IMG/VR virus record: IMGVR_UViG_3300001979_000006
Span: 1-21,335 of that record
Strand: one strand, 5' to 3'
From: a virus
DNA length: 21,335 bases
Within the stretch, counting starts at the first letter, position 1. Each line of letters opens with the position of its first letter. A program made the translations under genes and the position numbers. Positions 1,401-15,661 of the stretch are shown here, in pieces. Below the pieces are notes generated by a model. The model was not told the DNA's origin and ran no database searches. It saw only the letters and a list, made by a program, of their open reading frames with translations.

Positions 1401-1940
1401 TCACTGCGGTGTAGTAGCGCTCGCGTTCACCTGATTCTGAAGATTCAGGTAGAAGTCTTGGAGACCGCTGAGACGGCGGGCGCATTCGTAGTAGGTTTGG
1501 TAGTTTCTGGTGATGACGCCGATGGCTGCACCTGTAGTAACTCCAGACCCTGCGGCTTGACCATCAGGTCCGCTGGCGGATTCGGCAATCGTAGATTGAC
1601 CGTTGGCACGGGCTGCGTTGTCGTGCAGGCGCACAAACTCAGGATCAAGCCCAACATGAGCATCTTTACTTTCAACATATTTCACCACATCTTTGGTAAT
1701 GGTTTGATACTTGGTTACAATTCTGTCTCTATAGACAATCTGTTGCTTATCGGTAGTATCGGCTGTTTGTTGAAGAGTATCATTCTTCTGAACAATCTTA
1801 TCATCTGCCTTGACGGTAGCTGCAGCATACACATCTTTTTGATGTTGAATTCCCTTCTCATAAAAATAGAAAGAGGAACCTGAAATCAAGGCTAGGATGA
1901 GAGCACCGATAGCAAGCCATCTTTGAATTACACTAAACAT
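1401..1940 (-). CDS. Rz: Rz-like inner-membrane spanin (i-spanin)
   Basis: A 179-aa protein with a short N-terminus, one membrane helix at about residues 8-27 and a long polar periplasmic domain with a predicted coiled coil at about 30-95. This is the type II signal-anchor layout of Rz spanins, which join with an outer-membrane partner to fuse the two membranes at lysis. The best support is the lipoprotein gene nested inside it in another frame, the lambda Rz/Rz1 arrangement. It lies downstream of the tail tube gene on the same strand and has AGGTGAGA before its ATG. No holin or endolysin is present in the window. Sequence likeness to lambda Rz is low, so the call rests on topology and nesting. 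Confidence 0.8.
   Translation of the reverse strand: MFSVIQRWLAIGALILALISGSSFYFYEKGIQHQKDVYAAATVKADDKIVQKNDTLQQTADTTDKQQIVYRDRIVTKYQTITKDVVKYVESKDAHVGLDPEFVRLHDNAARANGQSTIAESASGPDGQAAGSGVTTGAAIGVITRNYQTYYECARRLSGLQDFYLNLQNQVNASATTPQ
1445..1678 (-). CDS. Rz1: Rz1-like outer-membrane lipoprotein spanin (o-spanin), nested in Rz
   Basis: A 77-aa lipoprotein read in another frame wholly within the i-spanin gene. It has Lys3 and Lys5, a hydrophobic stretch MLMLGLILSL and a lipobox-like LCAC, with Cys18 the likely lipidated residue. The mature part is rich in Pro, Ser and Thr and contains LRLPNPPADLMV, a phrase typical of o-spanins. It is expected in the outer membrane, pairing with the i-spanin across the periplasm. 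The start is ATG 1678, with a possible weak GGTGA site before it; an in-frame ATG at 1663 would still keep the lipobox. Confidence 0.82.
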   Translation of the reverse strand: MLKVKMLMLGLILSLCACTTTQPVPTVNLRLPNPPADLMVKPQGLELLQVQPSASSPETTKPTTNAPAVSAVSKTST

Positions 1941-3965: not shown

Positions 3966-4100
3966 TCAATCTAGGTCCATTGCATCCTTTCCACATTCGC
4001 CACAAACGGCTTCGCCGCGACGGAGGGGTGGATATGGAATCGGAATGAAGGCGCCACAGAATGAACAGTGCAAGCCTCCAACATATAGCTTATATTTCAT
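3966..4100 (-). CDS. Zinc-ribbon microprotein (44 aa)
   Basis: The minus strand reads MKYKLYVGGLHCSFCGAFIP at the start and ends CGECGKDAMDLD. The two Cys pairs, CSFC (12-15) and CGEC (33-36), can bind one zinc in a small zinc ribbon, with IPIPYPPLRRGE between them. The ATG (4100-4098) overlaps the TGA of the metallopeptidase gene as ATGA, and the next gene starts one base after its stop, so it fits the operon exactly. No partner is known; single zinc ribbons often mediate protein or nucleic acid contacts. Confidence 0.7.
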   Translation of the reverse strand: MKYKLYVGGLHCSFCGAFIPIPYPPLRRGEAVCGECGKDAMDLD

Positions 4101-4699
4101 TTCCTATTGGTGATCCAGTCGTTCATGCGTTCAAATACGCGGGGAGGGGCGCTTGTTACCATCAGCATTGTTCTGGCATCCAAAGTAACAACCGGCTTTA
4201 GTCCAGAATCGATCAGCGCCGCGTATGTTTTAGGTCGGATTTTGCTGAGAAGGTCTGGGTTGGTAACGAACAGACGGAAGATTTCAGCAAACCATTCCAT
4301 GTCGTTCGGACAATACGATGTGATTCGCTTTTCTCCTGACCGCTTGCGAATCTCGGTGGAGAACAGCATTGCACCCCGATTCCGATAGATGTCAACCCCA
4401 GTCTTGACTTCATCGACATGATGTCCTAGTTCGTGTTGAATCACCCCATAAGGGGTACGGTCAGAAATGAAACCCGCCCAGCTGTAGTTGGGATTTTGGT
4501 GCGCACAAAGCCCTACCCCAACATATACATGATTGCGACGATAGTAGCCGCAGGTCGCAAACCGCTTGATCTTCTGGTACTCAGGATCATTCTCATCATC
4601 AAGAATGTGTAGTGTCGGCATACGAATATTGTTCTTTTCACAGAACATCGTAGCGATGTTGACCCCAAGATTTGCCAGCTGCTTTTTGTTCGTGCTCAT
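4097..4699 (-). CDS. Putative zinc metallopeptidase (HExxH)
   Basis: A 200-aa protein carrying VIQHELGHHVDEV, with the zinc-binding HExxH at residues 89-93. About 45 residues on, MEWFAEIFRLFVTNP supplies a glutamate (E139, or E135) as the likely third zinc ligand, the layout of gluzincins. The N-terminal half has HVYVGVGLC and a Trp-containing loop, probably the strand that lines the active site. No signal peptide is seen, so it should act in the host cytoplasm; the substrate is unknown. Both ends are joined to neighbours by ATGA overlaps. It could be an anti-host or anti-defence protease, or a protein-processing enzyme. It does not look like a prohead protease, which would be a serine enzyme near capsid genes. 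Confidence 0.78.
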   Translation of the reverse strand: MSTNKKQLANLGVNIATMFCEKNNIRMPTLHILDDENDPEYQKIKRFATCGYYRRNHVYVGVGLCAHQNPNYSWAGFISDRTPYGVIQHELGHHVDEVKTGVDIYRNRGAMLFSTEIRKRSGEKRITSYCPNDMEWFAEIFRLFVTNPDLLSKIRPKTYAALIDSGLKPVVTLDARTMLMVTSAPPRVFERMNDWITNRK

Positions 4700-5181: not shown

Positions 5182-5356
5182 TATCGTCCGGAACTCCAAA
5201 CATGTCGAAGGCACGAGCAAGACCGCAACTGAAGGCGACAGGATGCTCTTTGCCCATGTGATGACAATCTCCACTCTTATCATATTCACAATGTGACTTG
5301 AACGGACACTCGCTACCTACAGGAATCATACCGCCTTTCAGTTGCTTGTTTTTCAT
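5171..5356 (-). CDS. Cys-rich small protein (61 aa), possible zinc binder
   Basis: Cysteines at about 17, 23, 31 and 44 lie in ECPFKSHCEY, GDCHHMGKEH and AFSCGLARAF, with three His residues between, giving a plausible zinc site. The ATG at 5356 overlaps the stop of the preceding gene (ATGA) and follows GGAG; an upstream in-frame start at 5368 would be a GTG with no gain. A helix, LARAFDMF, follows the last cysteine. Similar CPx4C...C...C small proteins are common in T4-like accessory regions, but none that I can name. Confidence 0.7.
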   Translation of the reverse strand: MKNKQLKGGMIPVGSECPFKSHCEYDKSGDCHHMGKEHPVAFSCGLARAFDMFGVPDDNAG

Positions 5357-5652
5357 TGTTCGCTCCACTTCCCATAAAATAGTTCACCTTCCTCCGGCAT
5401 GATTACACGCAGATAATCAATATATTCACGACCGGAAAGAACAGTGATTGCTTCTGCCCCGAGTTGTTCAGGTTTGGTGCCAATCCAGCTCACATCCTCA
5501 GCGCCTTCAGCAATATCCTTGATCGCATCTTCGCGGGAGATATAACCATCAAAGCTGCCAGCGAGGAAACCGCTATCACCAAACCCGTAGTACATGCCTT
5601 CTTGGATCTTGGCGCCGGAAGGCTCATCATGAAACGGCCAGATTTCCTTCAT
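5353..5652 (-). CDS. Hypothetical acidic protein (99 aa)
   Basis: It starts MKEIWPFHDEPSGAKIQEGM and contains FGDSGFLAGSFDGYISREDA, then a helix with DIAEGAEDVSWIG. The C-terminal half has YIDYLRVIMPEEGELFYGKW. No known domain is recognised. The ATG at 5652 is 5 bases after the stop of the prepilin-like gene. An upstream frame extension to 5712 overlaps that gene and is not needed. Its stop overlaps the next gene as ATGA. Confidence 0.68.
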   Translation of the reverse strand: MKEIWPFHDEPSGAKIQEGMYYGFGDSGFLAGSFDGYISREDAIKDIAEGAEDVSWIGTKPEQLGAEAITVLSGREYIDYLRVIMPEEGELFYGKWSEQ

Positions 5653-5657
5653 ATTGA

Positions 5658-5789
5658 TCACCAGAACTTGGCTAGGAAGTGGAAGCCCACATATACTGTA
5701 CCAACTACACAAGCGAGGATGAACAGGGCCCAGACAATCACCAAAAGTTCAACGATGGTGAAACCTTTCTGCTTCTTGGTCATTTTCAT
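5658..5789 (-). CDS. Type IV prepilin-like microprotein (43 aa)
   Basis: The N-terminus is a textbook class III prepilin signal: leader MKMTKKQKG with four lysines, then FTIVELLVIV with Glu at position +5 after the Gly-Phe cut site. One hydrophobic helix follows (about residues 10-35), ending in FHFLAKFW. There is no globular pilin domain; the protein stops right after the membrane helix. PilD-type peptidases cut and methylate such leaders in type IV pilins and type II secretion pseudopilins, so the peptide should enter the inner membrane and might be processed. The ATG at 5789 follows GGAG by 7 bases; ATG 5783 would shorten the leader. A role blocking pili or secretion is inference. Confidence 0.75.
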   Translation of the reverse strand: MKMTKKQKGFTIVELLVIVWALFILACVVGTVYVGFHFLAKFW

Positions 5790-5790
5790 T

Positions 5791-6021
5791 TCAAATCTCC
5801 ACAAGGCGATATTCACCGCCAGTATTTTTGTATTCTTCCAGCAGATCATCTGCCAGACCCTTTGCATTCACCGGAGGGGTCAGAGAAACCCAACCCGCGC
5901 CATCCATCTTTTGTACTTGCCAGCGGCGTTCCGTTGCCGGAGAAACTGCATTCTTGTTTGCCACAGGCAAACCCGTCTTTTGATCACGAATCCAACCAGC
6001 ACGAGCACTACAAATCAGCAT
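5791..6021 (-). CDS. Hypothetical protein (76 aa)
   Basis: It starts MLICSARAGWIRDQKTGLPV and has ATERRWQVQKMDGAGWVSLT in the middle, then a helix LADDLLEEYKN and GEYRLVEI at the end. This looks like a small alpha/beta domain; I do not recognise a family. The ATG at 6021 is preceded by AAGGAT at 6 bases. It is the first gene after the UUCG hairpin and ends one base before the prepilin-like gene, so the two are surely cotranscribed. Confidence 0.68.
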   Translation of the reverse strand: MLICSARAGWIRDQKTGLPVANKNAVSPATERRWQVQKMDGAGWVSLTPPVNAKGLADDLLEEYKNTGGEYRLVEI

Positions 6022-6072: not shown

Positions 6073-6612
6073 TTACGACCGAGCGACAGCCTTGGCCTTC
6101 GGTTTGCCCAGAGTGTTGAAGTAATTCATCACCGCAACATTGTTAGCATCGAAGATTGCTTCCACACTTTCGTCATACGTCACATCGTTGTTCTTGAATG
6201 ACAGACGATCACGAACTTGTTGTTCGTACCAACCCGACGACAGGTTGTCGAGCAGATTAGCTTCAAGCAGGGATGCCATCGAAGCCATCAGCGAATAGCG
6301 AGCCTTCGGCGGCAAGACTGGAAGGGCAACCGAAGCCATACCTTGACACACAGCCAGTTCCTGGACACGACCCTTTGGAATGGTGAACAGCGGCGGCAGA
6401 GTTTCGAACTTATGCTTGGCTTCAGCACGACCAAGAGCCTTCACGAAACGTTCGTTCTCGCGGCAGCGAGCCGGTTGGCCGACGATGATATCACCGCCTT
6501 CGGTCACCATCCAGGGAACAGTAACGCCGCCAGTTTGCTTATCTTCCAGACCGCTCCAAGTGCGTTGCTGTTGGTCGCGGAGATGAATGAAGCAGATTTT
6601 GTTCGTGATCAT
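6073..6612 (-). CDS. Hypothetical protein (179 aa), first gene after a promoter
   Basis: It starts MITNKICFIHLRDQQQRTWS and has a beta-rich first half with VTVPWMVTEGGDIIVGQPAR, a possible nucleotide- or ligand-binding fold, then FETLPPLFTIPKGRVQEL. The second half is helical, with repeated Ala/Leu (SLMASMASLLEANLLDNL) and a basic tail KPKAKAVARS. No family is recognised. Its Ala-rich codon use and regular composition suggest high expression. The start follows AGGAAT and lies 41 bases past a promoter core, and a stable hairpin follows its stop, so it may be the most abundant product of this operon. Confidence 0.78.
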   Translation of the reverse strand: MITNKICFIHLRDQQQRTWSGLEDKQTGGVTVPWMVTEGGDIIVGQPARCRENERFVKALGRAEAKHKFETLPPLFTIPKGRVQELAVCQGMASVALPVLPPKARYSLMASMASLLEANLLDNLSSGWYEQQVRDRLSFKNNDVTYDESVEAIFDANNVAVMNYFNTLGKPKAKAVARS

Positions 6613-7295: not shown

Positions 7296-7626
7296 AATTT
7301 TTGATCTGTTTTGAATAGTCGAAACAAGGTTCTGTTCTTCGCTTATTATCGACGTTCGGAACGCTGGTGTTTGTTTTTGGATCGAATAGCTCATCGGTGA
7401 AGAAGATGCTCATTGCTCCATCGCCCTCATATACAATGAAGGAACGCCCGATGAAATCCTTCCTATACATTTTCTTGTAGCTGCCATAGCAAGCCCCGTC
7501 GATGCCCAGGCTGGACGTCCACATGGATTTGTATTTCCATAGAGTCTGTTCAGCCCGATACATCTCAAGCTCAAATGCAGCAATCGGACATTCTTCGACC
7601 AGGTCCCAGAATTTTACTTTTTCCAA
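7282..7626 (-). CDS. Hypothetical protein (114 aa) with TTG start
   Basis: The first codon is TTG at 7626, giving MEKVKFWDLVEECPIAAFEL. It follows AGGAG in the end of telA by 8 bases, a strong site that supports the rare start. The body is aromatic-rich (LWKYKSMWTSSLG, SIFFTDELF) with IGRSFIVYEGDGAM, probably an alpha/beta domain. It overlaps the stop of telA by 13 bases, so it is probably coupled to TelA. No named family. Confidence 0.7.
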   Translation of the reverse strand: MEKVKFWDLVEECPIAAFELEMYRAEQTLWKYKSMWTSSLGIDGACYGSYKKMYRKDFIGRSFIVYEGDGAMSIFFTDELFDPKTNTSVPNVDNKRRTEPCFDYSKQIKNYGRL

Positions 7627-8777
7627 GAAAGCATCTCCTGCTTCATCGAATCGCGTAGCATGCTAATCTTGGCAGAAGCCTGTTGACGCTCTTGGCGTCC
7701 AGCTTCCTGAATTTGCTTGACTTGATGAACGCTATCGATCAGCTGCTGTTGCATATATTCCAACGTTTCGATATCGACCACCGAGCGCTCCGATGACTTC
7801 GCCACCGCGATTGCGTTCTGATTGTTCAATGCTGCTGCCTTACGGAAAAATTCGTTCGTCTTGTCGTCCATCTGATTACCCAATTCTGCGTTTTCCTTCT
7901 GACGCAGAGCTAGAATCGTCATAGACAGTTGCTTCTTCCAGGCAGGAATCGTCGTATTGATCAGATCGTTGAATTTCTCAACCATTGCCACATTACCAGC
8001 TTGAATCTGACGAATCTCCGGAGCCGTCAGGAGCGCGACCTGTTGCATGCGCTTCAAGCGATCAACCTGTTTCTCCCACAGTTTGATTCGCTGCTCATAT
8101 TCCTGCACTGATTGAATGAAAAATTGATCAGTGGAGCTTTCGGCCTCCTGCTTCTTGGCTTTATACTCTGCATTCATGTTTACAATCAGGGCTTCCGCTG
8201 CTTCGATGGAATAACCAAGTTCATGGTATTCCTGCATATTCTTTTCGTAAAGCTGATCCAAGAAGCGATTGTCTTCCCGCATCACATTTTGGCGGCTGCT
8301 CAGGTCTTGTCCGATCTTTTCGATAGACTTGCTTGTGTCTTCAAACTGAGCCAGGACTTCAACCTGCTTCTTCTTGAAGAAGTTCGTCACCTTACCGATG
8401 AAACCCTTATTCTTGTCGATGTTCAGATCATCAACATTCACTTGTGACGTCAGAGCCAGAATTTGGGTAATACCATCACCAAAATCCCCCATCTTGCCGG
8501 TTGTAGTTCGTTGAAGGACGGTATCCGACAGCGCGGCGACTTCCTTACCTGCTTCAGTGCCGAATTCGCTGATTGCCATCTGATCAGTCAGCGCCCTGGC
8601 CTTCACCAGTTTGTTTGACGCTTGAGTCGAGACATTGGCAACCGCATATTCTCGCTTCGGAGCTTGCTGGATAGCGGAGAAATCCGCAAGTTTCTCCGGG
8701 TACATGAGATTAACAGATGTGTCCTTAATGACCTCAGCGGTCGCGTTGCCAAAAAGGCTGTCATATTGTTTGGCCAT
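7614..8777 (-). CDS. telA: TelA-like toxic anion (tellurite) resistance family protein
   Basis: A 387-aa, mostly helical cytosolic protein. Family hallmarks are FLDQLYEKNMQEYHELGYSI with EAAEALI, the central LTAPEIRQIQAGN, then TTIPAWKKQLSMTILALRQ and ELGNQMDDKTNEFFRKAA. TelA/KlaA proteins go with ter genes and cell-envelope stress; the biochemical role is not settled. A disordered Gln/Ser/Thr-rich N-terminus (about 1-75) precedes the helical core. It sits in its own operon (promoter near 10414) rather than in the TerC/TerD operon that lies just upstream, but the two are adjacent and same-strand. Confident family call; substrate unknown. Confidence 0.9.
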   Translation of the reverse strand: MAKQYDSLFGNATAEVIKDTSVNLMYPEKLADFSAIQQAPKREYAVANVSTQASNKLVKARALTDQMAISEFGTEAGKEVAALSDTVLQRTTTGKMGDFGDGITQILALTSQVNVDDLNIDKNKGFIGKVTNFFKKKQVEVLAQFEDTSKSIEKIGQDLSSRQNVMREDNRFLDQLYEKNMQEYHELGYSIEAAEALIVNMNAEYKAKKQEAESSTDQFFIQSVQEYEQRIKLWEKQVDRLKRMQQVALLTAPEIRQIQAGNVAMVEKFNDLINTTIPAWKKQLSMTILALRQKENAELGNQMDDKTNEFFRKAAALNNQNAIAVAKSSERSVVDIETLEYMQQQLIDSVHQVKQIQEAGRQERQQASAKISMLRDSMKQEMLSWKK

Positions 8778-10464: not shown

Positions 10465-10563
10465 TTAATTATGGAATGTGTCGGCTAGCATTCCCAACAT
10501 CATGATAATGAAAGCAACGATGTACATTCCAAGGACGATATCATCAATGCTCAGATCGATCAT
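10465..10563 (-). CDS. Single-membrane-helix microprotein (32 aa)
   Basis: It reads MIDLSIDDIVLGMYIVAFII then MMLGMLADTFHN. A hydrophobic stretch from about residue 9 to 26 forms one membrane helix with acidic residues on the N-terminal side. The ATG (10563-10561) overlaps the TGA of the VWA gene as ATGA, and the terminator follows its stop by only 7 bases, so it is the last gene of the ter operon. It may act at the membrane with TerC or the VWA proteins; this is inferred only from position. Confidence 0.65.
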   Translation of the reverse strand: MIDLSIDDIVLGMYIVAFIIMMLGMLADTFHN

Positions 10564-11606
10564 ACCGATGCCGGCCAGTAGAGAACCGACGAACCTTCAA
10601 ACAACTTGCGGTTGGTTGATGTAGATTGTACAAAGATGTCGAACTTGCCATGATCACCGGGGACCAGACGAACATCACCAACGTGAGGAAGGCCCAGCAA
10701 ATCACGAGCAGCCGCACCACCGTAGATCGCGCCAGACTTCTTGTCCCGAATAACAATCTTCTTGTAATCCTGAACACGACGTTCTGGCTTGGTCAGTTCG
10801 TAGTATGCTGCCCCTTTTGTATAGGCACGACCACCAAGACGACGCTCACAAACATCCTTGATCTGATCCCCGTCTTCCTTCTCCAGTACCTTCCAGATAC
10901 TGACTTGTTGCGAGATATCAGTCAGAGCGGCTTTAACGTCCTTGACCGAAACATCGTTCAAATTCGTGTAGAAGCTGGTGGTGCTCTTAGCCCCGCTGGA
11001 ACGTGCGCTATAGAAATTGCGCATTGCGGTATTCGTAGCAGCCGAAGCAACTTCAACACCCTTGGTAGTTTGATCCCATTCCAGAATGTTGCCATCCGGC
11101 AGACCAAGTTCGCGGGTAAGTCGAGCCTTATAACCGCGAGGAACACGGAACACAAAGGTCCAACGATCGGTGGCCTGTAGACGACGAATTTCTTGACCAA
11201 GAGCCGGACCAGACCAACGACGCGAAGAGTTGTCTTCGCCGTCAGTGATGACCATGACCAGGAATGAAACCGTTTCTTGGTTTGCATCCGGAACACGCTT
11301 GAATTGTTCGATCAGCTCACCAACCGAATCAAACAACGGAGTGGATGAACCGTTGGTATCATAGTAGTGTTCATCGACCGGCTTGAGGGCCGTAACCGAT
11401 GCCAGCTGAACATCGAATTTGTTGATCGCAGGACGACCAATACCGCAATCGATCACCGATACAATCGTATCTTGGTTTTGAGCAATTGCCTCTTCCTTAA
11501 TAGAAGAGATATTGCTGTTATAGTCTCGGGCAGCAGCTTGTCGAATGTGCGTCATCGACGCCGAACGATCCCGGCTAATTCCGATGTAATTTTTGATATG
11601 ACTCAT
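10560..11606 (-). CDS. VWA-domain protein of the ter cassette (348 aa)
   Basis: A von Willebrand A domain with a full metal-ion-dependent adhesion site: DRSAS (13-17), Thr in GSSTPL (near 89) and Asp122 in VITDGEDNSS. The N-terminus KNYIGISRDRSASM is typical of cytosolic VWA proteins. The C-terminal third (about 250-348) is a separate basic domain with GGRAYTKGAAYYELTKPERR and LFEGSSVLYWPAS, a possible partner-binding or ligand domain. VWA proteins of ter systems are thought to build metal-dependent complexes with TerD-family proteins. It is joined to its neighbours by ATGA overlaps at both ends. Confidence 0.88.
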   Translation of the reverse strand: MSHIKNYIGISRDRSASMTHIRQAAARDYNSNISSIKEEAIAQNQDTIVSVIDCGIGRPAINKFDVQLASVTALKPVDEHYYDTNGSSTPLFDSVGELIEQFKRVPDANQETVSFLVMVITDGEDNSSRRWSGPALGQEIRRLQATDRWTFVFRVPRGYKARLTRELGLPDGNILEWDQTTKGVEVASAATNTAMRNFYSARSSGAKSTTSFYTNLNDVSVKDVKAALTDISQQVSIWKVLEKEDGDQIKDVCERRLGGRAYTKGAAYYELTKPERRVQDYKKIVIRDKKSGAIYGGAAARDLLGLPHVGDVRLVPGDHGKFDIFVQSTSTNRKLFEGSSVLYWPASV

Positions 11607-11785
11607 TTGTTTTCCTTTGTGTTGTCAAGCCAACGGACAAAATCCTTTTTCTTCCACTTCCCGGTCTTCACCCATTCAAATACCATATCCACCGGAATGG
11701 AAGAAATTTGTTCCGGAGTGAGACGACCGGGATGTTTGATATCATCCGCACGGATATAGTCAGTCTGACGATTATTGATAGTCAT
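11603..11785 (-). CDS. Small hypothetical protein (60 aa)
   Basis: It starts MTINNRQTDYIRADDIKHPG and continues RLTPEQISSIPVDMVFEWVK, with a basic end TGKWKKKDFVRWLDNT. The phrase 'F-x-W-V-x-T-G-x-W ... D-F-x-x-W' resembles small proteins common in T4-like phages. It sits between TerD and a VWA gene with ATGA coupling to the latter (11606), so it may be a ter accessory. No function known. Confidence 0.68.
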   Translation of the reverse strand: MTINNRQTDYIRADDIKHPGRLTPEQISSIPVDMVFEWVKTGKWKKKDFVRWLDNTKENK

Positions 11786-11835
11786 ACAATCAAAAATAAC
11801 GCAATGACCGAAAGTACGATGATGACGATATCCAC
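11782..11835 (-). CDS. Possible 17-aa membrane peptide with GTG start
   Basis: GTG at 11835 starts the peptide (M)DIVIIVLSVIALFLIV, wholly hydrophobic after Asp2. It begins one codon after the TerD stop in the same frame, and its TGA (11784-11782) overlaps the ATG of the next gene at 11785 as ATGA. It fills the only uncoded gap in this operon. There is no good ribosome site, so it may not be translated. Confidence 0.35.
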   Translation of the reverse strand: MDIVIIVLSVIALFLIV

Positions 11836-11838
11836 GTT

Positions 11839-12441
11839 TTAGAATCCAGGAACCTTGAACGCGGTGCAGAAGTCGCTAAGACCCTTTTGGAAGCCTTCAC
11901 CAACTGCGTTCAGAACCCATTCGCCGCTATCGTTCTTCTTGAACTCCACGAACAGCAGAGCCGTCGCAGTCGATGCGTCTTCATCCAGTTGGAACTTGGC
12001 CCGTTCTGCTCCGGTATTGTCGTAGATCGTGGCATATGCCTTTTCGATCTGACCGAAGTTTTGCTTGCGCTCAGCGGCCTCGTGAATGGTGATCACGATA
12101 GCGACACGGGAGGCTTCAGGCGGCAGCTTCTTGAAATCGATTTCAATGCTTTCGTCGTCGCCCTCTCCGCTGCCGGTGCGGTTATCGCCGCTCGACACCA
12201 CAGCGCCGTTGCCGATGTTTTGTTGGTTGTAGTAGCACACCCAACCGTCCTTTTGTGGAGGGATGGCCAGGACTGCACCGAATGGAGAGCCATCTTCACG
12301 GAGCACGAAAGCCGTGGCATCCAGGTCAAAGTCTTGTTGGGTGTCAAACTTCTTCTCGGACCAACCCAGACCAACCTTGACGAAATCCAGACCACCAGCC
12401 TTTGCGAGATTGAGCTTACCGCCCTTTTGGAGTTGCAGCAT
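11839..12441 (-). CDS. terD: TerD family protein (calcium-binding stress protein)
   Basis: A 200-aa TerD domain of normal length: LQKGGKLNLAKAG at the start, VGLGW, then the DFDLDATAFVL core (37-47), the acidic loop GDNRTGSGEGDDESIEIDF (about 85-103) and a C-terminal GEWVLNAVGEGF. Asp37, 39, 41 and the acidic loop are the usual calcium ligands of the family. TerD proteins are cytosolic or membrane-peripheral partners of TerC and act in tellurite resistance, phage inhibition and colicin resistance in bacteria. The start follows AAGGAAAC. It lies 11 bases after the 74-aa gene next to terC, so they are cotranscribed. Confidence 0.95.
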   Translation of the reverse strand: MLQLQKGGKLNLAKAGGLDFVKVGLGWSEKKFDTQQDFDLDATAFVLREDGSPFGAVLAIPPQKDGWVCYYNQQNIGNGAVVSSGDNRTGSGEGDDESIEIDFKKLPPEASRVAIVITIHEAAERKQNFGQIEKAYATIYDNTGAERAKFQLDEDASTATALLFVEFKKNDSGEWVLNAVGEGFQKGLSDFCTAFKVPGF

Positions 12442-12452
12442 GATTTGTTTCC

Positions 12453-12677
12453 TTAAACTAGGTTCTTGATAAGTTGATACAGTTCATTCATTTGGTACGT
12501 TTTACCGTCACTGAAACCTTCATCATATGCGTTCATAACGCCGTCCGTTAGGTCATCATAGTCGGTAAATTTGCAGCCAGGATACGCCTGGCGCACGATC
12601 TTGAGAACAAGGGTCTTCAATTCCAGAGGAAGACCCAAGCCATTGATCTTTGCTTCTACTTCAGGCGTGAGCCGCAT
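12453..12677 (-). CDS. Small acidic protein between terC and terD (74 aa)
   Basis: It starts MRLTPEVEAKINGLGLPLEL and runs through LKTLVLKIVRQAYPGCKFTD into an acidic stretch YDDLTDGVMNAYDEGFSDGK, ending in a helix. The D/E-rich YDDLTDG...DEGFSDG could bind calcium like an EF-hand, but no clear loop is seen. The ATG at 12677 is inside the last codons of terC, a 17-base overlap in another frame, preceded by AAGGAAG. Position in the ter operon suggests a helper role; otherwise unknown. Confidence 0.65.
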   Translation of the reverse strand: MRLTPEVEAKINGLGLPLELKTLVLKIVRQAYPGCKFTDYDDLTDGVMNAYDEGFSDGKTYQMNELYQLIKNLV

Positions 12678-13665
12678 CCGCTTCCTTCTTGGACAACAGG
12701 GAGTGAACAACCGAAATACCCAGGATCAGCGCCGCCGACAGACCGGTAACAACTTCAGGAATCTCAACTACCGTGGATGCATACATCATCGAAGCCAGAA
12801 CACCAATCGACCAGAATGCGCCGTGTTCCAGGAACTTCAAACTACCCAGAGTGCCGACCTCAACCATATGGAGTGTCATCGACCGGACGAACATTGCACC
12901 AATACCCAGGCCCAAGGCAATCAGAATGATGTTGTTCGAGATAGCGAAGGCTCCCACAACCCCATCAAACGAGAAGGATGAATCCAACACCTCCAGATAG
13001 ATGAAGGACGCCAGACCGGCTTTCGCACCGACATTGCTCTTGTCCATCAGTTCACCGAAAATCTTGACTGCAATCCAAGCCAAACCGCCCCAGGCAGCTG
13101 CCTTGAAGAATTCTGGACCGGTGTGAAGGAAAATCGTCGTGGCGCCGGCAATGACCAGAGTCAGAATAATTGCCGAAGCTGCTGCGTGTTGACCGATCTT
13201 GCCAATGAACTGTAGAATTTGTTCCACACCAGGAATCCAATGCTCATCCTTTTCCTGATCCATGAAGAAACTCAGGAATACAAGCATCAGGAACGTCCCA
13301 CCGAAACCCGCGATACTCACATGCGCCGCCGTAACGGTTTGTGCATATTGTGCCGGATTTTCAAAAGGGAGCAGGAAAGATTGAGTCAGACTCAGGGCGC
13401 TTGTCCCCCAAACAATCAGAATCGGGAACAGAAGACGAACACCGAAGACGGCAAGCGCCATACCCCAGGTCAGGAATCGATGACGCCATTTGTCGTCCAT
13501 ATCCTGGAGCACCTTGGCATTCACGACAGCGTTGTCGAGCGACAGCGAAGTCTCAAGAACCCCGAGGATTGCCGCCAGAAGAGCGCCTTGAGGGCCGGCC
13601 AAGAGGAAGGCCAGGACCATAGCACAGACCGTAAAGATCAGACTGCTTTTGTAATGTTGAAGCAT
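12661..13665 (-). CDS. terC: TerC-like membrane protein (DUF475 family)
   Basis: A 334-aa multi-pass inner-membrane protein, about 8-9 helices. It carries two matching motifs seen in the TerC/DUF475 group: LETSLSLDNAVVNA (37-50) and LEVLDSSFSFDGVVGAFAIS (about 224-243). Their acidic residues (E38, D44, E225, D228, D234) sit in the membrane and are thought to coordinate metal; TerC relatives act in metal homeostasis and metallation. A C-terminal region is Ala/Lys rich. The start is preceded by AAGGA. In the operon it lies with TerD and two VWA proteins, the usual ter complex. Confidence 0.92.
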   Translation of the reverse strand: MLQHYKSSLIFTVCAMVLAFLLAGPQGALLAAILGVLETSLSLDNAVVNAKVLQDMDDKWRHRFLTWGMALAVFGVRLLFPILIVWGTSALSLTQSFLLPFENPAQYAQTVTAAHVSIAGFGGTFLMLVFLSFFMDQEKDEHWIPGVEQILQFIGKIGQHAAASAIILTLVIAGATTIFLHTGPEFFKAAAWGGLAWIAVKIFGELMDKSNVGAKAGLASFIYLEVLDSSFSFDGVVGAFAISNNIILIALGLGIGAMFVRSMTLHMVEVGTLGSLKFLEHGAFWSIGVLASMMYASTVVEIPEVVTGLSAALILGISVVHSLLSKKEADAAHA

Positions 13666-13678
13666 TTTGTTTTTTCCT

Positions 13679-13840
13679 TTATTGTTGAACTACAAGTTCA
13701 TCACCAACGAAAGCCCATTCTTTATACTTCCCACCACGGCGGATTTCCCAGGCAATATGGTTATCTGTCTTGACAAACATATCACCATCGTATTTGAAAT
13801 TCATTCCGATGTTCAGTTCAGAGAATGCGATTGCTTTCAT
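13679..13840 (-). CDS. Small hypothetical protein (53 aa)
   Basis: It reads MKAIAFSELNIGMNFKYDGD and continues with MFVKTDNHIAWEIRRGGKYK and EWAFVGDELVVQQ. This is a small beta-barrel-like peptide, of a kind frequent in T4-like genomes, with alternating strands. The ORF fits exactly between a VWA gene and terC (stop 13 bases before terC). No family name known. Confidence 0.65.
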   Translation of the reverse strand: MKAIAFSELNIGMNFKYDGDMFVKTDNHIAWEIRRGGKYKEWAFVGDELVVQQ

Positions 13841-13857
13841 TTGTATTGACCAAAGAA

Positions 13858-14559
13858 TTAATTGGAACTTTGGGACTTGACCCAGTTACACAGATCGTCG
13901 TTGAGCAGCGTTTCGTACATCTGCTCATCGGTGGTCTTGTTGAGATTCGGGAAGGTCACGAAACCGACATGATCATGTTTGTTTGCCAGCACGCGAAGCA
14001 GCGAGAAGTCTGCATTGCCAACGCCGATCAGCTGGATGTACATATTCTCATTGCCAAGCATATGCACCAGTTGATCCGCTTCCGCGCTGTTACCTTGATC
14101 TTCACCGTCCGTGATGAACATCAAATATGACGGTTCTGTATCTTTCGTCTTGGCGCCGAACAGCGACCGGATGAAGCCAGGAGCATTGCCCTTGACATCT
14201 CCGTGGATCTTCTTCAGCGCTTTGCTATAGTGCGTGCCGGACCAAAGGATGTTGGAAGGAACTTGTGGAATGAACTTGTGATTCACATACGAATCAAAGT
14301 CATCCGGAGTGATAGGTTCCACTTCGCAGACATCCGAACCAAAGGCATAAGCCTCCAGAGATTGGTTGTCATCGAAGCGCATTGCCACCGGAATCAGGCG
14401 GTTCACCAGTTCTTGGATCGTGCCGTTGTTGAATAGCGGATGGATCGAACCAGACACATCAAGACACATCTTGACAGCCAGTACGATGTCTGTAGGAACA
14501 TTGCGCTTTTCCAGTTGGAGGCGCACAATTTCCTGCTTTTTCTCAAGACTGAGGGACAT
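13858..14559 (-). CDS. VWA-domain protein of the ter cassette (TerF/TerY-like, 233 aa)
   Basis: It has a complete metal-binding site: DVSGS (34-38), Thr109 in SGTHYSKA and Asp151 in MFITDGED. The ends LVHMLGNENMYIQLIGVGN and HVGFVTFPNLNKTTDEQMYE belong to the same Rossmann-like fold. This single-domain form resembles the VWA part of TerF or stand-alone TerY. The start follows CGGAGAAAT. It is the first ter-type gene after the three paralogues. Together with the longer VWA gene it gives two metal-binding proteins in one operon. Confidence 0.9.
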   Translation of the reverse strand: MSLSLEKKQEIVRLQLEKRNVPTDIVLAVKMCLDVSGSIHPLFNNGTIQELVNRLIPVAMRFDDNQSLEAYAFGSDVCEVEPITPDDFDSYVNHKFIPQVPSNILWSGTHYSKALKKIHGDVKGNAPGFIRSLFGAKTKDTEPSYLMFITDGEDQGNSAEADQLVHMLGNENMYIQLIGVGNADFSLLRVLANKHDHVGFVTFPNLNKTTDEQMYETLLNDDLCNWVKSQSSN

Positions 14560-14583: not shown

Positions 14584-14928
14584 TTATTGAGCCTTGATCT
14601 CTCGGATCATATCCTTGATCCAAAGAAGACGGTATTGCTGTAGATACTTTGGGTTAACAGAATCTCCAGCAGGAACCCCGTTGGCCGCTAGCCAGCGATA
14701 TACGTATGTATATTCAATGCGTTTGGCAATCTCGTCTGTGATATCAAACGAAATGTCTCGTAGCGGACTATTTTCAAAAATACGGTCCCCAGCCTCTTCA
14801 ACGTGATTGCAAACTGCTGTATCGAAACAGTCCGGGTCTTCAATATTCTTGATACTGCGATAAGCAGCGTTCAGAATTTTGACGGCAGCACGTTTCTTAC
14901 GGTAGGTATTGATATATCTACTAAACAT
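14584..14928 (-). CDS. Tandem paralogue 3 (114 aa), unknown
   Basis: It starts MFSRYINTYRKKRAAVKILN and ends QQYRLLWIKDMIREIKAQ. It shares with the next two genes the N-terminal pattern MF...I.T...K.AA.K.L..A, a middle helix with DEI..R....YV..WL, and the YRL.WI..MI.EIK ending. The ATG at 14928 has a TAATG junction with the previous stop. An extended frame to 14967 is not preferred because the family starts at MF. Helical, cytosolic, function unknown. Confidence 0.75.
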   Translation of the reverse strand: MFSRYINTYRKKRAAVKILNAAYRSIKNIEDPDCFDTAVCNHVEEAGDRIFENSPLRDISFDITDEIAKRIEYTYVYRWLAANGVPAGDSVNPKYLQQYRLLWIKDMIREIKAQ

Positions 14929-15263
14929 TACGATTCCTTGATTTCGCGGATCATATCTTTGATCCACAGAAGACGATATTGGCGAGCATATAAATTGCCT
15001 TGGTCATCATTAAGATGATTTCTGGCATCAGCTGAGTTAAAGCGAAGCCACGTTGTTACGTAGGCGCTATCAGGCCCGAGCCGCTCCGAGATTTCATCAC
15101 AGATTGCATCCGCAATCTTATATTCTTTTTGAGTCGAAGCTGATGCGGATACCGCACCACAAACTGCAGTTGCATGTCCATCTCGAATACAACGATAGGA
15201 TGCATTCAAAAGCTTGATTGCGGTCCGCTTTTCGCGGTAGGTCTTGATGTTCTCGTTAAACAT
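14928..15263 (-). CDS. Tandem paralogue 2 (111 aa), unknown
   Basis: It starts MFNENIKTYREKRTAIKLLN and ends ARQYRLLWIKDMIREIKES. It is a clear relative of its two neighbours, with a helical body and the shared C-terminal YRLLWIKDMIREIK. The middle is Ala/Ser rich (VSASASTQKEY). The start overlaps the previous gene by 8 bases and the stop shares TAATG with the next. Confidence 0.78.
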   Translation of the reverse strand: MFNENIKTYREKRTAIKLLNASYRCIRDGHATAVCGAVSASASTQKEYKIADAICDEISERLGPDSAYVTTWLRFNSADARNHLNDDQGNLYARQYRLLWIKDMIREIKES

Positions 15264-15597
15264 TTTGTTCCTTGATCTCCTTGATCATAGAATCGATCCA
15301 GCGCAGACGGTATTCACGAGCCAACACATAAAATTGAGAATGATCGGCATCATGCAAAGCTTGAGCTGGAGAATGATTATTACGCAACCAACTTGTCACA
15401 TAACCATAGCCTTCCAAACGGTGCGAGATTTCATTCCGAATAAATTGAGAGACGCGAATATCCATGTAACTCTCTTCAGAATCTTCCACGGCATTGCATA
15501 CCAAACTATTGAGGCCGTCTCTAATTTTGTTGTGAGCGCTTTTCAGCAATTTGATTGCTGCTTTCTTTTCATCGTCGGTTTTGATATTGCTAAACAT
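15256..15597 (-). CDS. Tandem paralogue 1 (113 aa), first gene of ter operon
   Basis: It starts MFSNIKTDDEKKAAIKLLKS and ends AREYRLRWIDSMIKEIKEQN plus V. It is the most divergent of the three copies but keeps the ..IKT....K.AAIKLL and YRL.WI..MI.EIK patterns. The start at 15597 matches the other copies; an in-frame ATG at 15606 is the alternative. It begins 20 bases past the conserved downstream box of a strong promoter and leads the operon. Confidence 0.75.
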   Translation of the reverse strand: MFSNIKTDDEKKAAIKLLKSAHNKIRDGLNSLVCNAVEDSEESYMDIRVSQFIRNEISHRLEGYGYVTSWLRNNHSPAQALHDADHSQFYVLAREYRLRWIDSMIKEIKEQNV

Positions 15598-15616
15598 TCG
15601 GATCATTCCGCGTCGC

Positions 15617-15661
15617 GTTAATCGATAGGAGAAGTATATACATTCCATATGGTGAAGTAAA
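15617..15661 (-). promoter_or_regulatory. Sigma70-like promoter with conserved downstream box (copy 2)
   Basis: On the minus strand: -35 TTTACT (15661-15656), 17-base spacer, -10 TATACT (15638-15633), then TCTCCTATCGATTAAC. It drives the paralogues and the ter operon. The -10 is one base off TATAAT. Confidence 0.78.

Follow-up and report, generated by a model that had tools for sequence, protein, structure and literature searches.

A 43-residue phage microprotein joins a type IV prepilin signal and a bare membrane helix to a C-terminal tail found in other phage microproteins

A 43-residue microprotein of a T4-like phage begins with a genuine type IV pilin export signal, borne by a bare membrane helix. 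It is encoded in a stretch of 21,335 nucleotides, called here the window, which corresponds to positions 1 to 21,335 of the IMG/VR virus record IMGVR_UViG_3300001979_000006. The microprotein is a short ORF product with a single membrane helix that runs straight into HF[IVL]xK[FYW]W and a stop codon, and sequence comparisons indicate that this ending defines a virus-specific microprotein family, larger than the subset bearing the prepilin signal. The explanation we favour, to which we give a probability of roughly 0.4, is that of a T4-like phage inner-membrane microprotein whose working part would be the periplasm-facing tail, used for host takeover or superinfection exclusion, and which in a subset of members would be delivered by the prepilin signal. 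One odd ORF has in this way become a testable family of about 100 distinct phage microproteins of 25–79 aa with an almost fixed tail.

The gene lies on the minus strand from 5789 to 5658 (stop included) and its product is MKMTKKQKGFTIVELLVIVWALFILACVVGTVYVGFHFLAKFW. A Shine-Dalgarno-like GGAG, read from the sequence, is located at 5797–5800 on the same strand, 7 nt before the ATG. The N-terminus reads MKMTKKQKG|FTIVELL. It is composed of a basic leader (codons 1–9, 5763–5789, minus strand), with prepilin-peptidase cleavage predicted after G9 from the type III signal consensus, followed by F(+1), T(+2), I, V and E(+5) (codons 10–14, 5748–5762, minus strand); the type III (prepilin) signal thus includes both G-1 and E+5. 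The C-terminal tail HFLAKFW occupies codons 37–43 (5661–5681, minus strand). All the elements named in the original prediction, that is the leader MKMTKKQKG, G at −1, F at +1, T at +2, E at +5, a single hydrophobic stretch and no head, are present in the ORF.

Profile searches and structure prediction agree with this description. The Pfam model N_methyl (PF07963) matches the microprotein with 23.3 bits for a cut-off of 21.2 and also matches 11 of 11 aligned family members. The score with NCBIfam TIGR02532 is 13.8, just below the 16.3 cut-off, and this model is at or above cut-off for the tail-family relatives L002, L003, L018 and L027. AlphaFold2 predicts one helix, residues 12–42, with a mean pLDDT of 88.6 and values above 90 over most of its length. 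Nothing follows this helix in the 43 residues: the long alpha1 with alpha1C and the head (or a split head partner) are absent, and the lone helix bears out the claim that the pilin head domain is missing.

The gene is closely packed among other small genes. The upstream ORF (5791–6021, minus strand; 76 aa, no known family) ends 1 nt before its start, and the downstream ORF (5353–5652, minus strand; 99 aa, no known family) has its ATG at 5652, 5 nt past its stop. Another upstream neighbour, at 6073–6612 on the minus strand, encodes 179 aa of no known family. In profile searches, these neighbours match no pilin family and no pilus or secretion gene was detected among the window genes searched. 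The same searches identify the window as T4-like (gp19-type tail tube, UvsX-like and DnaB-like genes); its helicase is at most about 44% identical to those of the best isolates, and whole-window megablast against phages gave no match.

Other parts of the window were noted in passing. A homing endonuclease gene (phrog_314) is located at 2–871 on the plus strand, opposite to most window genes. A ter-like stress gene set occupies 7614–8777 and 10560–14559 on the minus strand; it includes a TelA-like gene (phrog_5890, tellurite resistance), a membrane protein looking TerC-like (phrog_30252), a TerD-like candidate at 11839–12441 and two von Willebrand-type-looking proteins, the last names coming from the look of the sequence with no library match. 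At 14584–15648 (minus strand), three consecutive ORFs of 111–130 aa resemble tandem paralogues, with similar starts and RLLWIKDMIREIKE-type ends. The 200-aa product of 4097–4699 (minus strand) has a HELGHH metallopeptidase-like zinc motif with only weak Pfam matches.

A second IMG/VR contig, L027 (IMGVR_UViG_3300046501_000132), carries MKSKQQGGFTLIELLLTFWFLFLLSLIGSAIYVAVHFIAKFW in the slot of the microprotein gene. Window and L027 share the order TelA-like, 114-aa, 179-aa, microprotein, 99-aa, 65-aa, 72-aa, 200-aa, 63-aa and gp19, with identities of 42% for the 179-aa, 74% for the 99-aa and 58% for the 200-aa proteins. Because gene order is the same, the L027 protein is the orthologue, and this syntenic counterpart shows that the microprotein ORF does not occur by chance. 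Searches for relatives of the window via the 99-aa neighbour and TelA returned nothing beyond the L027 contig. Among isolates, tblastn gave two near-full-length relatives with weak E-values (about 0.5), in the Aeromonas phages TS3 (T5-like, MKRAKGFTLIELIFCILALGLLGGGGYVVIHFIAKFW) and Ahp1 (Straboviridae, MKNMKQTGFTLIEMIFAIFGLASLIGAGFGVYAIVHFVTKYW). Both have the size of the microprotein and match it at both ends, and further relatives of the same form were found in IMG/VR. The prepilin signal is conserved in these homologues, and its lack of conservation, named by the original prediction as a refutation, is not seen.

The TS3, Ahp1, L027 and similar IMG/VR relatives all end in HF[IVL]xK[FYW]W. 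IMG/VR was therefore scanned with a tail-only DNA pattern (this heptapeptide followed by a stop codon, with V at the third position ahead of the H) which leaves the N-terminus free. At least 118 loci were obtained. In at least 108 of these, at least 94 being distinct, a start codon is present and the tail follows immediately on a membrane helix. A scrambled motif of equal information content gave 7 loci across the whole of IMG/VR, none with a helix, and a K-to-R version of the tail gave 2, again none with a helix. The search patterns prescribe H, F, K and W, so that how far these residues can vary was examined only through the K-to-R and scrambled versions; positions left free are conserved as well, with an aromatic residue (Y/W/F) at −11 in most members, only I, V or L at −5, and F, Y or W at −2 in 113/114 members. 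The last seven residues, which the original prediction passed over, are conserved in many more members than the pilin signal is. The shortest member found, L106, has 25 aa (MKCLIYPILGIIFWYVVIHFIIKYW). Two resemblances of the tail were considered and rejected: an outer-membrane beta-signal, as position −3 is an invariant Lys, and a TonB-like helix end, a resemblance only.

The tail is nearly confined to viruses. When 257 Gb of bacterial genomes were screened with a slightly stricter pattern, 9 matches resulted, of which about half do not look like the tail family. L171 comes from a Paraburkholderia prophage that has a repressor close by, and L174 resembles a contig of phage origin (383 kb, with small ORFs that all lie on the same strand). 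Genomes of Paraburkholderia's bacterial family matched in 1/399 cases, again the L171 prophage. In PHROGs, Pfam, NCBIfam and PADLOC there was no significant match outside the pilin-type N-terminus and no model covers the tail; the family is essentially absent from the libraries searched, and the probable reason is that ORFs as short as these are skipped by gene callers. No description of it was found in the literature on phage pilins, and it is apparently undescribed so far.

How is the prepilin signal distributed in this family? Among the tail-only IMG/VR matches listed, the complete GFTxxE signal is present in 12/94 distinct members, and none is present in 82/94. Over all 114 members collected, the four key residues are all present in 27, three of four in 1, and two or fewer in the rest; the expectation from shuffled N-termini is 0.045 members with four and 2.3 with three. 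Codons were compared in 12 pairs of relatives, which are not independent since 5 phages give 10 of them and pairs share members, and some of which involve relatives found with patterns that include signal or tail residues: codons for G-1, F+1, T+2 and E+5 differ by 20 synonymous substitutions and by 0 non-synonymous ones; the corresponding figures are 11 and 0 for the four tail codons and 57 and 157 for mid-helix codons. Signal changes are still never non-synonymous for L162, L133 and L192, found by the tail alone (the L192 protein is identical to those of L117 and L171). The signal is kept whole or not at all and purifying selection acts on it, so that it matters where present.

These codon data weigh heavily on one alternative, in which a bacterial pilin gene was captured and only a fragment without function is left. 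Truncated prepilins do occur in other phages (31 aa in PX29, 59 aa in Pseudomonas phage G1, 67 aa in ValKK3). A remnant of this kind is disfavoured by the purifying selection acting on signal and tail codons, at both ends of the protein; moreover L027 keeps the same slot and both ends, and the tail is no pilin sequence and hardly occurs in bacterial genomes. We hold this origin to be very improbable.

The original prediction interpreted the microprotein as a headless pilin: it would enter PilD and the pilus or type II secretion platform as a dominant-negative subunit and shut down pili or secretion, excluding for instance pilus-dependent phages. Part of this interpretation is supported. The signal is real, complete, conserved and under purifying selection, all-or-none in its retention, and engagement of the prepilin peptidase is plausible; it includes E+5, which pairs with the N-terminal amine of the neighbouring subunit in filaments (PMC10191384). 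The Paraburkholderia prophage with a signal-bearing member resides in a host genome with three Peptidase_A24 matches. Geobacter geopilin domain 1, itself headless, does polymerise (PMC10191384; PDB profile matches), and phage proteins blocking pili exist (PfsE, PMC8764522). What fails is the interpretation as a general explanation, because the signal is missing in 82/94 of the tail-bearing relatives listed; it also leaves the conservation of the tail unexplained, and pilus or secretion genes were not found among the window genes searched. As an account of the whole protein it appears rather unlikely.

In the opposite direction, the signal could be a mere N-in membrane anchor and the entire activity pilus-independent, since many different N-termini carry the same tail. 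A plain anchor needs no G-1, F+1, T+2 or E+5, yet the codons of these residues show only synonymous changes and signals in partial decay are hardly ever seen; we judge this version unlikely. Two observations place the core function outside the signal. Only 12/94 of the listed members have it in full, and other members have unrelated N-termini, including the cultured signal-less one from the N4-like Stenotrophomonas phage C121 (MTFRTVFIMWLVWVAIILSVAGAGLYVAWHFISKFW); core function can therefore not depend on being a pilin. The simplest assumption is that the activity resides in the tail, which the members have in common. A shared ancestry of members with and without the signal would itself rest on this short tail and is beyond proof by a tree. 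Searches by tblastn with signal-less members were often without matches, for which BLAST masking of low-complexity hydrophobic sequence is perhaps responsible. Prepilin peptidase was found in 2/3 host genomes of signal-less members; the third (Chitinophagales, L174) has none, but as its contig may be a mis-binned phage this comparison carries no weight here.

Genomic position bears on when and where the microprotein might act. Neighbours across the family are mostly nuclease, recombination, replication and terminase genes. The C121 member is 3.1 kb from the left end of the N4-like genome, beside the SSB gene, and the TS3 member is at 7.5 kb of 115 kb in the T5-like one. No conserved partner gene was found in the 86 loci where one was sought. 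The early ends of N4-like and T5-like genomes and the classes of neighbours argue for takeover or exclusion and not for lysis or virion structure. A lysis accessory (small holin, antiholin or lysis-timing protein) would fit a tiny single-pass membrane protein with a conserved polar and aromatic end. It is quite improbable given these neighbours, among which no lysis or tail family is listed, and the separate Rz-like spanin (phrog_8821/2536) at 1401–1940 on the minus strand, far from the microprotein gene. Nested in that spanin gene in another frame is a lipoprotein-like ORF (1445–1678, minus strand), an arrangement as in Rz/Rz1 pairs.

The mechanism we propose for the tail-centred inner-membrane protein is as follows. 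The microprotein would probably be made early or mid infection, as gene position suggests. Because of its basic leader and hydrophobic helix it should insert N-in/C-out, with HF[IVL]xK[FYW]W at the periplasmic end of the single helix. The N-terminus is net positive in 93% of signal-bearing members; in signal-less members it is net positive in 59% and net negative in 9%, and their sequences weakly suggest the same topology. In a host with prepilin peptidase the leader would be cut after Gly9 and Phe10 maybe methylated, and the remaining 34-residue helix would hardly protrude into the cytoplasm; PilD processing of the signal-bearing subset appears likely from the signal and interference with type IV filaments possible. 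The tail would then dock on a partner that is widely conserved and accessible on the outer side of the inner membrane. This partner could be a host machinery or the apparatus with which an incoming phage injects its DNA, and blocking or remodelling it would result in host takeover or superinfection exclusion. The prepilin signal would be a lineage-specific N-terminal module, other members reaching the same membrane position via other N-termini.

More broadly, and as a tentative proposal only, the tail could be a virus-only envelope effector of T4-like, T5-like, N4-like and temperate phages that acts on a conserved inner-membrane target, with the prepilin peptidase and type IV filament apparatus of the host serving a subset of these phages for its placement or processing. 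If the tail acts on a common inner-membrane component, a widely shared phage takeover target would be revealed; blocking of pili by the prepilin subset, should it occur, would make these proteins minimal anti-pilus agents.

As in type IV pilins and type II secretion pseudopilins (PF07963), a basic leader with G-1, F+1, T+2 and E+5 precedes a hydrophobic helix. Unlike them, the microprotein has a mature part of 34 residues without alpha1C or head, a fixed HFLAKFW end and no nearby pilus genes, and most of its family relatives have no signal. Geobacter geopilin domain 1 (PilA-N) also has a prepilin signal on a helix without globular head (PMC10191384; profile matches 9egp, 7tgg), but it is bacterial, has 61–90 residues as deposited and a separate head protein as partner, and is devoid of the HFxxKFW tail.

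Phage-encoded prepilin signals, some headless, are known in PX29 (31 aa), ValKK3 (67 aa), Pseudomonas phage G1 (59 aa) and a cyanophage 'pilin' (127 aa; phrog_3433), but none of these proteins ends in HFxxK[FYW]W. The 31-aa ORF of Aeromonas phage PX29 is annotated 'similar to N-terminal part of fimbrial protein (pilin)' and ORF231 of ValKK3 was noted as PulG/PilE-like (PMC13142089). The statement that nothing similar had been described in T4-like phages holds only in part; both proteins lack the tail. Short tail-less prepilin-signal proteins of 31–67 aa (PX29, L005:2998-3093; G1, L008:2998-3177; ValKK3, L004:2998-3201; Vibrio F86, L010:2007-2192) possibly form a separate, independent headless group. 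Xanthomonas phage PhiXhv-15 and Erwinia phage Ep032 (L009:2998-3297, L011) encode an identical 99-aa protein annotated as type IV pilus subunit and starting with MKKQSGFTLIELLIVVAVIALL.

Finally, PfsE (PA0721) of the Pf filamentous phage is likewise a tiny single-helix N-in inner-membrane protein. It differs by its motif YxWGW, absent from the microprotein, and by having neither prepilin signal nor HFxxK[FYW]W tail. PfsE blocks type IV pili by binding PilC, its aromatic residues are essential and a C-terminal tag abolishes its function (PMC8764522); it is thus a precedent for a host membrane machine being disabled by a very small N-in peptide of the membrane that contains aromatic residues.
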